DNA of 43,529 bases from Bacteroidota bacterium (GTDB lineage: Bacteria; Bacteroidota; Ignavibacteria; UBA10030; UBA8401). This document shows, one piece after another, positions 28,261-33,883 of this stretch. Numbering within the stretch: the first letter of the stretch is position 1; each line of letters starts with the position of its first letter. The translations under genes and the position numbers were made by a program. The notes beneath the pieces were generated by a model. The model did not search any database and had not been told where the DNA came from. It saw only the letters and a program-made list of their open reading frames with translations. The stretch is from the NCBI GenBank assembly GCA_013361065.1, contig JABWAK010000012.1, positions 1-43,529 of the forward strand, read 5' to 3'.

Positions 28261-29565
28261 TTATTTCTCCTTCAATCCGCCGGGAAGACGCGGCGATGAG
28301 ATGAGTTCCTCAAAGACCGACCATCGTTTCTTCTCGGTGGGATTCTTTCCTGCCTTCTTCTCCACATATGCCTTCACCAGGTCCTGTCCGAGATTGTAGT
28401 TGATCACATAGCTGCGGTACTTGTCCACGAACCGGATGCGCTGGGCCGCCCGCGCACTGTCCGACAGCGCATACTTCGTCAGCCAGCGTTCGGCCTCCTC
28501 GCGCGTCAGGGTGCCGTTCAGGTATCCGCGGGCCGCCTCGTTGCCGGCATACGCCAGCTTCCCGGCGATGGCGAGCACGGCGTAATACTGCTCCGCTGCG
28601 GAAGGATCGAGACCGGCGAGCGGGAAGAGCACTTCTTTCTCGAATTTCATCCGTTCCGGTTCCGGCAGGACGACATTGATGCCGTAGTTCGCGCTCCCTT
28701 CGGCGATGAGGGACTGCGGACTGAAGAGCGGATAGATGCAGAACTCGATCCAGCCATTCTTTTTGAGCAGTTCGGATTCCAGCAACACGTTGTAGACATG
28801 GTGGCCGGGATATCCTTCATGCGCGGCGAGGTCCACCGCACGGTCGATGTAGATGGGAAGGTCCGTGTTCACCTGGATGAGACTGTGTGCATTCCCCTGA
28901 TACCAGTTGTATCCGCTCCATGCTTTGTTCGTCACATACTCCACCTTGAAGTTCTCGTTCTCCGGCATGGTGATGTACCGCTTGGTGCGCGCGCGGCATT
29001 CGAGGATGGCGGCGGTGAAGACGGTGTCTAGTTTCTCCTTCGGGATGATGAACCGGTCCTTGAACTGGTTGTACCGCTGCTGCAGCGTGCCGCTGCCGGG
29101 CGGGAGCGCACGGTCCAGCTGCTTCAGCACGGCGGTGAAATGGGCTTCGGTGTTCTTCGGCGGGACGGCATCGTAGAGACGCTTCGCTTCCTCATCGAAG
29201 GAGTACTTCGTTCCGTTGAGCATCTGCACCTTGGTCTGTGCCGCGGTGAGCTGCTTGAGCAGATAGGTCTTGCGGAGCGTGTGCTTCTCGTCCTTCTTCG
29301 GCACGCGGATCCGTTTCACGCGGGTGATGATCGCCTCCGTGCGGTCCAGCAGTGCGGTCAGACGGTAGTTCATTGTCTTCGCCGCGTCCTGCCATTCCTT
29401 CGGTCCGTAGTATGCGTCGACGAAATCGGGGTCGTGCTGCCCGATGTCCAGGATGAGCCGCACGTATTGCTCGGCGGTCTCGTTGAGCGCTTCCTTGTAA
29501 TCCTTCCGCTGCGGGGCAGCGGTGAGCGAGATGAGGGAGAGGGCGATCATGGCGAACAGTCGCAT
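28261..29565 (-). CDS. DUF885-family putative zinc peptidase, exported
   Basis: A 434-residue protein with a probable signal peptide (MRLFAMIALSLISLTAA). HEGYPGHH at 249-256 is the zinc motif of the DUF885 family, with a likely third ligand E289 in LIAEGSANYG. Family members are thought to be metallopeptidases; no substrate is known. KVEYVTNKAWSGYNWYQG and the C-terminal INYNLGQDLVKAYVE are further conserved-looking stretches. It is 12 bp downstream of the SDR gene on the same strand; TAAGGA before the ATG is a possible ribosome-binding site. Confidence 0.82.
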   Translation of the reverse strand: MRLFAMIALSLISLTAAPQRKDYKEALNETAEQYVRLILDIGQHDPDFVDAYYGPKEWQDAAKTMNYRLTALLDRTEAIITRVKRIRVPKKDEKHTLRKTYLLKQLTAAQTKVQMLNGTKYSFDEEAKRLYDAVPPKNTEAHFTAVLKQLDRALPPGSGTLQQRYNQFKDRFIIPKEKLDTVFTAAILECRARTKRYITMPENENFKVEYVTNKAWSGYNWYQGNAHSLIQVNTDLPIYIDRAVDLAAHEGYPGHHVYNVLLESELLKKNGWIEFCIYPLFSPQSLIAEGSANYGINVVLPEPERMKFEKEVLFPLAGLDPSAAEQYYAVLAIAGKLAYAGNEAARGYLNGTLTREEAERWLTKYALSDSARAAQRIRFVDKYRSYVINYNLGQDLVKAYVEKKAGKNPTEKKRWSVFEELISSPRLPGGLKEK

Positions 29566-29577
29566 CGTGAGGGTTCC

Positions 29578-30357
29578 TTATGGTGTGGTTCTGCGGTGGA
29601 CTTGCGTCGGTGATGCCTGGTCGGTCGGCATCATGACGATGGTGCTGATATTGACGTGGGGCGGACGGGAGCAGGACCAGACGATCGTCTCGGCGATATC
29701 ATCCGGCGTCAGCGGTGTCATCCCCTGATAGACGCTCTTGGCGCGCTGTTCATCGCCGTGGAAGCGAACGATGCTGAACTCCGTCTCGATGAGTCCCGGA
29801 TCGATGCTCGTCACCCGGACCGGTGTGCCGAGCAGGTCCATCTTCATCCCTTCGTTCAGTGCGGTGACGGCGAACTTGGAGGCGTTGTAGACATTCCCTT
29901 TGGGATAGACCCAGTGGCCGGCCACCGAACCGATGTTGACGATGTGGCCGCTGTTCCGTTCGACCATCCCCGGCAGGACGGTGCGGGTCACATAGAGCAG
30001 TCCTTTCACATTCGTATCGATCATCTCGTCCCAGTCGTCGATGTTCCCCTGCTGGATAGTGTCGAGTCCGCGGGAGAGCCCGGCATTGTTCACCAGGATG
30101 CCGATCCGTTTCCATTCATCGGGAAGCGCAGCGAAGGACCGTTCCACGGCTGCGCGGTCGCGCACATCGAGTGCGAAGGAATGCACCTTCACGCCGTGGG
30201 CCGAGCGGATCTCTGATGCGAGCGCGTCCAGCCGTTCCGTGCGGCGGGCGCAGATCAGCAAGTGTGCACCTTCCGCAGCGAAGCGAAGGGCGGTGGAGCG
30301 GCCGATGCCGGAGGAGGCGCCGGTGACGAGAACAATGGTATTCCGAAGTGAGGTCAT
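29578..30357 (-). CDS. Short-chain dehydrogenase/reductase (YdfG-like)
   Basis: A 259-residue NAD(P)-dependent classical SDR. The cofactor motif TGASSGIG is at 12-19, NNAG at 90-93, and the catalytic residues are S144 (NIGSVAG), Y157 and K161 (YNASK). DVRDRAAVERS and the PGLIETEF segment match the YdfG/serine-3-dehydrogenase group, which acts on hydroxy acids and small aldehydes. R38-R39 after the second strand favours NADP(H). First of a two-gene unit with the DUF885 peptidase. Confidence 0.88.
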   Translation of the reverse strand: MTSLRNTIVLVTGASSGIGRSTALRFAAEGAHLLICARRTERLDALASEIRSAHGVKVHSFALDVRDRAAVERSFAALPDEWKRIGILVNNAGLSRGLDTIQQGNIDDWDEMIDTNVKGLLYVTRTVLPGMVERNSGHIVNIGSVAGHWVYPKGNVYNASKFAVTALNEGMKMDLLGTPVRVTSIDPGLIETEFSIVRFHGDEQRAKSVYQGMTPLTPDDIAETIVWSCSRPPHVNISTIVMMPTDQASPTQVHRRTTP

Positions 30358-30397: not shown

Positions 30398-31477
30398 TCA
30401 CATTTTGTTCCGATATGCCAATCCCATCGGCGAGTACCGGAAGGAGAGTCCGGCGATGAACTGATCCCGGCTGCCGATGGAGACGAAGAGACCGGGTGAG
30501 AACCCGAACAGTCCGATGACGCCGGGGTAGAGATTGAACCGGAGCTTCTCGTTGATGCGGTTGGAGACCATCACCGAAGCGAGCAGGGAATTCTCCCGGT
30601 CATAGTAGATGCCGGCCATCCAGCCGAGTTCCACGGTGACGGAGCGTGCGCCGTTCACCACATTCACGGTGCGGAGCTGGCGCTGCGTGGCGCCCGCGGC
30701 GATGGTGAGATACTCACCGTCCCCGGATGGAATGGAAAGTCCTGCCAGACCATTGTCGCCGAAATGATAGAACAGACGGTAACCCGGCATGAACGGCATC
30801 GGGTACCGGATGACATAGTATTGTCCATGGTTCTCCAGGGTGTTGAAGGCGGGACTCCATGCCGCCTGACCGGGCCAGGCGGTCATGCTCAACGTGCTGC
30901 CGAAGAACTCCGCGACATCGTCGTTCAGGAAGAGGAGCGCGCCGCCAAGATTGAAGAGATAGATGTCGGCGATCGGGTCGACGTTCGGACCGATATAGCG
31001 GTCGTTCTCTACCGCTTCGTTCACCAGATGATAGGCGGCCACGGTGAGACCGGAGAGGAGTGCCGGTGCGCCGAAGCCGTGATGGGAGTACCATTCGTAC
31101 ATCATCCGTGCATCCATACCGCCGCCGATGAAGTGGAGCGTGTAGTTGGGGAACCACTGCGCCTCTTCGATCTTCAGACTCGTCGGGAAGACCTCCTGTC
31201 CGATGAACCGGCTCCAGCCGAACTTCTCGATCTGCGTGAACGGATCGGCGAGATTGTCCAGCACATTGCGTGCGCCGGTGCCGAGTTTGATGGTGGAGAG
31301 GTCGCGGGAGTGGGTGGCGGACTGGAGGATGTCGAAACCGGCATTGATGAAAAGGGAGCCGGGATTGATGAGCGATTCGGAACCGTACGGCCGGGCGTGA
31401 TAGAAATAGCGCTGTTCCTGTGCGGTGAGCACGGTGCAGCAGATGAAAAGCAGGAGAACAGCCGGCCGGTATCCCAT
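30398..31477 (-). CDS. Unrecognised exported protein, possibly outer-membrane
   Basis: A 359-residue protein with a signal peptide (MGYRPAVLLLFICCTVLTAQ). The N-terminal two thirds contain aromatic, partly helical segments (MYEWYSHHGFGAPALLSGLTVAAYHLVNEAVEN, then PIADIYLFNLGGALLFLNDDVAEFF). The last 130 residues alternate as beta-strands (YLTIAAGATQRQLRTVNVV, VTVELGWMAGIYYD, FVSIGSRDQFIAGLSFRYSPMG), consistent with part of an outer-membrane barrel. No family is named with confidence. It sits 53 bp after the response-regulator gene. Confidence 0.7.
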   Translation of the reverse strand: MGYRPAVLLLFICCTVLTAQEQRYFYHARPYGSESLINPGSLFINAGFDILQSATHSRDLSTIKLGTGARNVLDNLADPFTQIEKFGWSRFIGQEVFPTSLKIEEAQWFPNYTLHFIGGGMDARMMYEWYSHHGFGAPALLSGLTVAAYHLVNEAVENDRYIGPNVDPIADIYLFNLGGALLFLNDDVAEFFGSTLSMTAWPGQAAWSPAFNTLENHGQYYVIRYPMPFMPGYRLFYHFGDNGLAGLSIPSGDGEYLTIAAGATQRQLRTVNVVNGARSVTVELGWMAGIYYDRENSLLASVMVSNRINEKLRFNLYPGVIGLFGFSPGLFVSIGSRDQFIAGLSFRYSPMGLAYRNKM

Positions 31478-31529: not shown

Positions 31530-32204
31530 TTACGGTTTTCCCGTCAGGTCGAGCATGTGCGTGTCCGAGTTCTTCAGGTACGGTTTGAACTGCGGATCCT
31601 CCAGGGAGGAGAGTTTCTTGACGATGTCCGCCAGACGGTGTCCGTTCGCCATCATCGTTTCGATGTCCGCCGGCAGCTCCGCTTCACGCGGGGTGCCGAT
31701 CTTCTTCTTCATCACCTGGAGCGTCAGCATGATGATGCCGAGCGGATTGTTGATCTCGTGACCGACGGTGATGGCGAGCTCGGTGACCGCCTTCTGGTGC
31801 TGGAATTTGGAGAGTTCCTGCTGGAGCGCCGTGATGCGGAGTCCTACGTTGACGCGCGCGACCAGCTCCTTGTCATTGAACGGCTTCGTCATGAAATCGT
31901 CCGCCCCCTGTTCCATTCCTTCGATCTTGTCCTCCGCCGAGTCGCGGGCGGTAAGGAGGATGAAGTAGGCGTACTTCAGGTCCGGATGGTTCTTGATGTG
32001 CCGGCAGAATTCCGTGCCGTCCATCTTCGGCATCATCCAGTCCGAGATGATCAGATGCGGACGCTGTGCATCGGCCACCTGCAGACCGTGTTCACCGTTC
32101 TCGGCCAGATGGACCTCGTATCCGAGCGCCGTCAGGCGCTTCTGGAGGAAGGAGCGGATGTAGTTGTCATCGTCAACGACGAGGATCTTGATGGCCATGG
32201 TCAT
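31530..32204 (-). CDS. Response regulator with HisKA-like domain but no kinase ATPase
   Basis: A 224-residue two-component protein. Residues 1-122 are a receiver: acidic D11-D13, phospho-acceptor D55 in ISDWMMPKMDG, T85 in LLTARD and K107 in TKPF. Residues about 125-205 look like a histidine-kinase dimerisation helix pair with H149 in VGHEINNPLGII, the H-box. No N, G1 or G2 boxes follow; the protein stops at 224. It could be a phosphotransfer relay from the receiver to H149 or a truncated hybrid kinase. The ATG overlaps the rqcH stop by 4 bp (ATGA; an ATG two codons later is possible), so expression is coupled to the ribosome-rescue gene. Confidence 0.85.
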   Translation of the reverse strand: MTMAIKILVVDDDNYIRSFLQKRLTALGYEVHLAENGEHGLQVADAQRPHLIISDWMMPKMDGTEFCRHIKNHPDLKYAYFILLTARDSAEDKIEGMEQGADDFMTKPFNDKELVARVNVGLRITALQQELSKFQHQKAVTELAITVGHEINNPLGIIMLTLQVMKKKIGTPREAELPADIETMMANGHRLADIVKKLSSLEDPQFKPYLKNSDTHMLDLTGKP

Positions 32205-33883
32205 TCTTTCTGTTCAGGGAGAAGCGGCTGAACAAATATAACTTTTTCCTTATCAAGTGCAACCGTACCGGCCGGTGCGCCCTTGGGTTTATGGATGTAC
32301 TTCCGTTCCGTCATCGCTACCGGCACATGTTTGGCATTCTTCATCTTACTATAATAGGCGGCGATGGAGGCGGCCTGTTCCACGGCTTTTTTGGACGGTT
32401 CGCCCGGGGCCGTGCCGAGTTTCAGGACCACATGGGAACCGCTGGAACCGCGGGCATGGAACCACAGGTCGTTCGGCCGTGCATAGCGGAAGGTGAGCAG
32501 ATCGTTGTTGGCGCTGTTCTTGCCGGCATAGACGGTGAATCCCCCCTCCACCGTGAAGATCTTGAACGGGGGCAGTGCCTCGTGTTCCTGTTCCGTCATG
32601 TATCCGAGCTCCTTGAGCATGCTTCCATTGGAGTGTATGAAATTTTTGAGTGAAATACTGTCCGTGATCTGTTTAGAGTTCTCTATAACGGACTGCAGGG
32701 CTGCGGTGCGCCGTTCGAGCATTCGCAATCGCTCGCGAGATTCCTCCCGTCCGGAACGCGCTTTTTTGGCCTTTTCGAAGTACCGTTCGGCATTCTTCTG
32801 CGGGGTGAGGCTGGATTCCAGCGGAATCCGGATGATGATGTCCGGGTTCAGGGGATCGCGAAGTTCGGCCGCTGCTGCACCCTTGGTCAGCATGCCCAGG
32901 TTCGCCATGATGGCAGCGGCATACTGCTGATATTTCTCCGCCCGGGATGCATCGTTCATCTCCGTCTCTACCGCACGCATCGTCCGTTCCGCCTTCTCGA
33001 GTTCCTTCTGCAGCCACTGGACGTACGTTTTCTTCTGCTGCAGCACGGAGGACTCGGATCGTCCGAAGCTGATGAACCGGGTGATGCCGGTGAAGAGATC
33101 GTCGTACTGTTCGCGGCGATACGGCGCGAGATGCTGCAGCGGGATGAGCGTCAGTGCGACGGGGGACCGCTCATCGAAATAGATGGAGGGTGTGATGCGG
33201 TCCGGCAGCAGCAGTTCGCGGACAAGACCGGCCGCCGCATCGGCCATGCGGGCGGTGTCCGTTTCCGTGAAAGAGGAACCGGTGATGCCGCAGCGGAAGA
33301 CGATCTCATCGGCCAGGATGGTGCCGAGTTTCGGCGCGCACTTCTTGAGCGCGCGGCGCGGGTCCGACTGTTCGGCGGAGAGCGCCGTGAGCGTACGGAT
33401 GAACTCCTCGCGCGCCGGCAGGATGTCGTTCTCTGTGACAGGCTGCGGCACCAGAGGGTACGGACGGCGGAGACCGACGGTTTCCTTCTTCTTCAGGAAC
33501 GCATCGGTGACCGTCCCGTCCATATCGCACAGCACCACATTGGCAGCGGAGGCGTAGAGTTCGCAGCAGAGACGGAGTCCGCCGGAGAGGGAGATGATCA
33601 CGGCGCGGTCCGACGCGAGCATGTGGACCGATTCGATATGCCGGTCGATGAGCGACGGGAAGAGATCGACGGTGTTCTTGTGCGTTCTGCTCGTGCCGCT
33701 CCGGGCGATGAGGGCATTCTCCCGCGCGCCGCAGCGGACAGTGATGGTGTGCGGCTCCGGAGCATACAGCACTATGGAGAGGGTGTTCTTCTCCTGAGAG
33801 TACACCTCGGCGATCACCGTGCGGGCGTACCGTTCGTGCAGCAGCCGGGCGGCATGGAACAGCGTGAGATAATTGACGAGCAT
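32201..33883 (-). CDS. rqcH: RqcH/NFACT-family ribosome quality-control protein
   Basis: A 560-residue homologue of Rqc2/RqcH (formerly fibronectin-binding protein A family). These bind stalled 50S-peptidyl-tRNA and add C-terminal alanine tails that mark peptides for decay. The NFACT-N domain covers about 1-240, with D92-R93 at the position of the tailing-critical D-R pair. A helical region with coiled coil spans about 270-430 (QQKKTYVQWLQKELEKAERTM). The NFACT-R domain follows at about 450-555 (TVYAGKNSANNDLLTF, NDLWFHARGSSGSHVVL). A TATCTTTG box sits four bases before the ATG. It is overlapped at its 3' end by the response-regulator gene. Confidence 0.87.
   Translation of the reverse strand: MLVNYLTLFHAARLLHERYARTVIAEVYSQEKNTLSIVLYAPEPHTITVRCGARENALIARSGTSRTHKNTVDLFPSLIDRHIESVHMLASDRAVIISLSGGLRLCCELYASAANVVLCDMDGTVTDAFLKKKETVGLRRPYPLVPQPVTENDILPAREEFIRTLTALSAEQSDPRRALKKCAPKLGTILADEIVFRCGITGSSFTETDTARMADAAAGLVRELLLPDRITPSIYFDERSPVALTLIPLQHLAPYRREQYDDLFTGITRFISFGRSESSVLQQKKTYVQWLQKELEKAERTMRAVETEMNDASRAEKYQQYAAAIMANLGMLTKGAAAAELRDPLNPDIIIRIPLESSLTPQKNAERYFEKAKKARSGREESRERLRMLERRTAALQSVIENSKQITDSISLKNFIHSNGSMLKELGYMTEQEHEALPPFKIFTVEGGFTVYAGKNSANNDLLTFRYARPNDLWFHARGSSGSHVVLKLGTAPGEPSKKAVEQAASIAAYYSKMKNAKHVPVAMTERKYIHKPKGAPAGTVALDKEKVIFVQPLLPEQKE

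Follow-up and report, generated by a model that had tools for sequence, protein, structure and literature searches.

The histidine kinase LvrB joins a receiver (REC), a DHp and a CA domain in one chain and is described as being activated via phosphorylation of its receiver, which forms a coiled coil in the helix joining receiver and DHp (PMC13269768). ChpT and Spo0B are reported as dimeric DHp-type phosphotransferases (PMC3433190, PMC9981736, PMC11210211). The DHp of EnvZ and of NtrB is stated to suffice alone for phosphatase activity, and the same source assigns the acidic residue beside the HisKA histidine to the kinase reaction only and the Asn or Thr at His+4 to the phosphatase reaction only (PMC3510030). 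As for ribosome quality control, a survey of rescue pathways counts rqcH across phyla (PMC11633108). Literature searches for RqcH/NFACT with a response regulator, an operon or a histidine kinase uncovered, among titles and abstract openings, no description of such a link, nor did those titles and openings describe a receiver-HisKA protein without ATPase linked to rqcH.

Architecture of the locus and of the receiver-DHp protein

Against this background we analyzed a gene for a receiver-DHp protein found directly beside rqcH in contig JABWAK010000012.1 of assembly GCA_013361065.1 (GTDB Bacteria; Bacteroidota; Ignavibacteria; UBA10030; UBA8401); the window is the whole stretch of 43,529 nt that was studied. 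The relevant genes are:

32201..33883, minus strand: rqcH, coding for an NFACT protein of 560 aa, directly upstream in the same orientation (Pfam domains, adjacency)
31530..32204, minus strand: receiver-DHp protein, 224 aa from the first ATG and 222 aa from M3 (open reading frame, Pfam, 20-row alignment)
32196..32198, minus strand: start codon at M3, retained in every row of the 20-row alignment; the rqcH stop is 2 nt before it
30398..31477, minus strand: 359-aa protein without Pfam family, the usual next gene downstream (present behind the receiver gene in 14 of the 19 readable genomes)
29578..30357, minus strand: short-chain dehydrogenase, frequently found farther along this run of genes (adh_short 2.4e-56)

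Based on its domain content the 560-aa protein is assigned as RqcH: both NFACT_N (5.4e-40) and NFACT-R_1 (1.6e-14) are recovered above the Pfam cut-offs, and its scores against the NCBIfam models of archaeal RqcH and of EfbA stay under the cut-off. The 4-bp overlap of the two genes in the original prediction is obtained only when the first ATG is taken as the start; the relatives all start at the equivalent of M3, past the rqcH stop. This start lies 0-15 nt beyond the stop in 19 of 21 loci (29 and 95 nt in the others), pointing to a tight head-to-tail packing, probably with no overlap. Elsewhere in the window, positions 28261-29565 code for a probable secreted metallopeptidase of 434 aa, which has the metal-binding-like motif HEGYPGHH and matches DUF885 only marginally, under the cut-off.

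Within the receiver-DHp protein the following elements were delineated:

31848..32186, minus strand: receiver domain, residues 7-119 (Response_reg PF00072, E 5.2e-29)
32040-32042, minus strand: D55 of the receiver domain
31884-31886, minus strand: K107 of the receiver domain
31599..31778, minus strand: HisKA/DHp domain, residues 143-202 (PF00512, 30.9 bits against a curated cut-off of 26.9)
31758-31760, minus strand: H149 of the H-box HEINNPLG in the HisKA domain, followed by E150 and N153
31545..31583, minus strand: conserved C-terminal tail PYLKNSDTHMLDL, residues 208-220, standing where a CA domain would be (alignment)

Thus, the receiver with an intact D55, the H-box histidine H149 and the lack of a kinase ATPase, all noted when the sequence was first inspected, were borne out by the open reading frame and the Pfam domains. 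The receiver retains its acidic pocket (D11-D13), phospho-accepting aspartate (D55), Thr (T85) and Lys (K107), all of them invariant, and the HisKA domain combines a profile match above the cut-off with a phospho-accepting histidine. The CA/HATPase domain that would make the chain a histidine kinase is absent from it, as no Pfam HATPase match was obtained up to E=1 in this protein or up to E=0.01 in two further receiver-DHp proteins of the family. The acidic residue after the histidine and the Asn at His+4, represented by the invariant E150 and N153, conform to the residue pattern of HisKA phosphatases. A full-length AlphaFold model (mean pLDDT 72.9) has a confident receiver, with pLDDT of 71-96 per ten-residue block, and a weak DHp; pLDDT falls below 50 at residues 135-156, including the H-box, and at 194-224, including the tail. 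When modelled alone, the C-terminal 100 residues yield a two-helix hairpin and tail at modest confidence (mean pLDDT 67).

Phyletic distribution and gene neighborhood

We searched 60 genomes at E 1e-45, comprising 22 from the window's family and 38 from five other families of the order. The receiver-DHp protein was detected in 20 of the 22 family genomes, the window's own included, and in none of the 38 others at this threshold, placing all 20 matches within the one family. The two exceptions, G014 and G020, are family members with genomes of 1.7 Mb that keep rqcH without the receiver-DHp gene. A scan of a species-level genome collection recovered these loci again, together with a contig titled Clostridia bacterium (JADGQQ010000039.1, L038), which carries the family's rqcH-receiver-DHp locus and whose match is 63% identical to the query; its label is probably a binning or labelling error. 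None of 16 translated, more distant matches was a receiver-HisKA protein without ATPase.

With neighbors counted from tblastn, rqcH adjoins the receiver-DHp gene on the same strand in all 20 carrier genomes, which span eight genera, although in G006, G015 and G019 rqcH itself is cut by the contig end. The pair is hence conserved, an outcome in favor of the initial reading, and a pairing that recurs in every carrier is not due to chance. The remaining neighborhood is variable: the 359-aa gene was not found downstream of the receiver gene in 5 of the 19 readable genomes, and only the window and G018 have pyrG within 0.7 kb upstream of rqcH, while in G005 it is about 5 kb off. As the adjacency to rqcH is constant while these neighbors vary, the link between rqcH and the receiver gene is the tightest in the neighborhood. 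Conversely, among 19 stretches taken downstream of rqcH, 17 in other families and 2 in the small genomes, none contained a relative of the receiver-DHp protein; one of these stretches measured only 207 bp.

Sequence conservation and selection

The alignment used for the conservation analysis has 20 rows, namely 19 genomes and L038; G001, whose contig stops short of the H-box, was not included. Invariant throughout are M3, D11, D12, D13, D55, T85, K107 and the whole H-box H149-I157 (HEINNPLGI), as well as P208, Y209, L210, S213, M217, D219 and L220 of the tail, so that the conservation of H149 among relatives, proposed as a check on the initial reading, is complete. The invariance of D55, H149, E150 and N153 would fit a working phospho-module.

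Pairwise dN/dS values were computed against the window by the Nei-Gojobori method for seven pairs. For the receiver-DHp gene they are 0.012 (G006), 0.025 (G007), 0.019 (G004) and 0.151 (G018), with three pairs saturated; for rqcH they are 0.133 (G006), 0.130 (G007) and 0.376 (G018), with four pairs saturated. The receiver-DHp gene is, therefore, far more strictly conserved than rqcH. The DHp with the tail, computable in 4 of the 7 pairs, gives 0.011, 0.041, 0.035 and 0.136, placing the DHp half under about the same constraint as the receiver half.

These data bear on the idea that the gene is a recently truncated or decaying version of a full REC-HisKA-HATPase kinase. Its architecture does correspond to the front part of such kinases: the spacing from K107 to H149 is 42 residues in all 20 rows, as is the corresponding distance in a complete REC-HisKA-HATPase kinase of the window's own genome, indicating that the register of a receiver-controlled kinase has been kept. 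Against this, judged by reading-frame length (219-230 aa), all 19 readable family genomes lack a CA domain, and no readable family genome carries the full-length kinase at this locus that would have undermined the original prediction. Likewise, the window holds neither an ATPase remnant nor a frameshifted HATPase downstream: the next open reading frame, which has no Pfam match, begins at 31477, leaving no space for an ATPase domain behind the receiver-DHp gene. The low dN/dS (0.01-0.04 in close pairs), the DHp half included, further argues that this is no decaying kinase. In view of the family-wide frame lengths and the strong purifying selection we rejected recent truncation as exceedingly improbable.

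Predicted mechanism and its alternatives

We propose that the protein is a receiver-gated DHp phosphotransferase or phosphatase, a reading drawn from its anatomy, with partner and target only predicted, to which we give about equal measures of belief and doubt. The protein would be a cytoplasmic, CA-less, receiver-gated dimer, with dimerization presumably occurring through the DHp, and its gene is probably co-transcribed with rqcH. D55 would receive its phosphate from one of the cell's many kinases, and this phosphorylation would reshape the helix joining the receiver to the DHp, as in receiver-controlled kinases; the fixed 42-residue register between K107 and H149 suggests an LvrB-like coupling of receiver phosphorylation to this helix. 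The reshaped helix might in turn gate what the DHp dimer does with a phosphoryl group carried by a second response regulator: H149 would transfer it, as in Spo0B or ChpT, or the HExxN motif would serve to remove it, as the EnvZ and NtrB DHp domains do on their own. By analogy with published HisKA work, in which the acidic residue is specific to the kinase reaction, the invariant E150 would fit a pure phosphatase less well. Co-transcription would additionally tie the level of the receiver-DHp protein to that of RqcH; the proposal does not extend to any sensing of stalled ribosomes or action on them.

Alternatively, the DHp might be only a dimerization device with H149 unused and the receiver as the working part. 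The receiver is indeed the best-modelled folded part of the protein and there is no effector domain; yet the catalytic H-box HEINNPLGI does not vary in any of the 20 rows, which is beyond the needs of dimerization, and we accordingly view this alternative as quite improbable.

A further alternative is that the protein forms one half of a split kinase, in which a receiver kinase that lost its own histidine would use its CA domain to phosphorylate H149 in trans, with the two halves forming a mixed dimer or a transient complex. The initial reading had called for an orphan ATPase-bearing kinase with a matching HisKA; such a protein was not found as such, and His-less receiver kinases with an intact HATPase emerged instead, in genus g2 and in the window's genome among others:

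L043:6744-7814, L342-L344; L345, L346, L347, L349; L395:8255-9412: His-less receiver kinases with intact HATPase

They occur in three settings, i.e. beside the rqcH pair (g2), with receiver-AAA activators (family f6), and in tandem with a complete paralogue (the window's genome). In all three g2 genomes a REC-DHp-HATPase protein whose H-box reads LLDLRTPL, the histidine being lost, is encoded downstream of the receiver-DHp gene, at a distance of 87 bp in G008 and about 2 kb in G016 and G021; its HATPase scores 5.7e-31 in the one protein scanned. The window's genome has a REC-HATPase protein without HisKA match, located away from the locus and in tandem with a complete REC-HisKA-HATPase paralogue. 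The invariance of E150 could also be cited in favor of a split kinase, the equivalent residue being needed for kinase and not for phosphatase activity according to the HisKA work (PMC3510030). The presence of a His-less, ATPase-bearing kinase within 2 kb in every g2 genome keeps such an arrangement in consideration. However, ChpT and Spo0B likewise keep an acidic residue beside the histidine, and E150 is therefore not decisive. Moreover, of the 17 other family genomes having the receiver-DHp gene, 12 show no match to the g2 kinase at E 1e-60 and five show only distant ones (36-39% identity), and His-less relatives are also present in f6, where the receiver-DHp gene is absent. On balance, we consider a split kinase unlikely, and retain the receiver-gated phosphotransferase or phosphatase as our working proposal.

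Other ATPase-less DHp proteins of the order

The window's genome yields 48 HisKA matches, three of which are in open frames under 300 aa: the rqcH-linked receiver-DHp protein, a 236-aa membrane-DHp protein on contig C44 and an 89-aa frame. The last, on C214, was rejected as a stand-alone HisKA protein, since its frame runs into the contig end, making the C44 protein the sole further short HisKA frame detected in this genome that is complete. This membrane protein (G000:C44:39865-40047; L306, L339) has a C-terminal DHp with the H-box HEINNPLA and no ATPase, and similar proteins were encountered at L295, L301 and L307.

Short DHp proteins were also recovered in other families of the order:

L243-L245 (f2): degenerate receiver and DHp, upstream of giant PAS hybrid kinases
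L251-L253, L255, L256, L259, L261, L263-L265 (f3): degenerate receiver and DHp, between an HTH_17-receiver regulator and a GTPase that we take, from its sequence, to be YchF-like
L246-L250, L254, L257, L258, L260 (f5): stand-alone DHp of ~90 aa, behind PAS hybrid kinases, with a TPR-like protein nearby

In 3 of the 9 f5 loci read, an HTH-receiver regulator is also present in front. Family f6 has tandem receiver-DHp proteins without ATPase, and further receiver-DHp and membrane-DHp proteins were also encountered. CA-less DHp proteins are thus a regular building block in this order, often placed beside kinases and regulators. Those of f2, f3 and f5 look like unstudied phosphorelay or phosphatase modules, and the location of the stand-alone f5 proteins behind PAS kinases and, in those 3 loci, an HTH-receiver regulator is the context that would be expected of relay or phosphatase partners.

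Orthology of the receiver-DHp protein with those of f2, f3 and f5 was suggested by a profile that contained the rows of the window's family. Without these rows the profile, at E 1e-5, detected the receiver-DHp protein weakly in 4 of the 14 family genomes searched, the best value being 5.2e-7 in G009, where it was the top match; in the remaining family genomes full kinases or other short DHp proteins scored better, or the protein was not among the matches listed. Given this weak and unselective result, the claim of orthology was dropped. The HTH-receiver regulator of f3 and f5 was rejected as a candidate target of the receiver-DHp protein, as a search at E 1e-35 detected it in none of the 22 family genomes.

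Possible relationship with ribosome quality control

The suggestion that the pair couples translation stalling to signalling did not gain support: the pairing ends at the border of the family, rqcH persists alone, and the rates of the two genes differ. We lean towards the view that the link with rqcH is an inherited operon layout only and that the receiver-DHp protein is a general signalling protein outside ribosome quality control. The restriction of the pairing to one family (0 of 38 genomes elsewhere and none of the 19 stretches downstream of rqcH), the retention of rqcH without its partner in both small-genome members, and the very different rates at which the two genes evolve are all in line with this view. 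On the other hand, the adjacency in 20 of 20 genomes and eight genera, while the 359-aa gene and pyrG vary, speaks against mere layout. From so fixed a gene order a common transcript is likely, but a common function does not follow. As this view concerns the link and not the mechanism, it can be combined with the receiver-gated DHp explanation.

A more far-reaching scenario would be a family-wide signalling branch of ribosome quality control, in which the receiver-DHp protein, translated from the rqcH transcript, would adjust the phosphorylation state of a regulator to the demand for quality control. In at least one genus the ATPase would come in trans from a His-less kinase, giving a natural split kinase; more broadly, the order would use a whole set of ATPase-less DHp proteins as free phosphorelay and phosphatase parts. 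We regard this as a speculative scenario of low probability. Were the pair to act together, ribosome quality control would have a two-component output, of which the literature searched gave no description. Even without a link to RqcH, a natural CA-less receiver-DHp protein under very strong selection offers a clean test object for ATPase-free DHp function.

Comparison with known systems

Under the receiver-gated proposal, a close architectural counterpart is the LvrB-type kinase (REC-DHp-CA), which has the same order of receiver and DHp joined by one long helix; the NCBIfam model of the LvrA hybrid kinase covers residues 6-195 of the receiver-DHp protein with 78 bits, far below its cut-off of 1200. 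Unlike LvrB, the protein is without a CA/ATPase domain in any family member read and has a short conserved tail instead. The pair of Spo0F and Spo0B in the Bacillus sporulation phosphorelay likewise combines a receiver with a DHp-type phosphotransferase that is dimeric and has no kinase activity, whereas here, in a likeness of architecture, the two are fused in one chain. The pseudo-kinase phosphotransferases of the ChpT/PhyT type also use a DHp dimer for phosphotransfer without ATP, an activity that by analogy may be predicted for the present protein; ChpT, however, is described as keeping a Bergerat-like C-terminal domain (PMC3433190), whereas the receiver-DHp protein has none and bears a receiver in front. 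The other ATPase-less DHp proteins of the order share the HEINNPL-type H-box and the lack of HATPase, but have a degenerate or absent receiver or two membrane helices, and other neighbors. Finally, the DHp of EnvZ or NtrB, when isolated in laboratory constructs, shows phosphatase activity and is likewise a HisKA domain with an HExxN or HExxT-type motif and no CA, whereas the receiver-DHp protein, known here from sequence, is a natural and conserved protein with a receiver attached.
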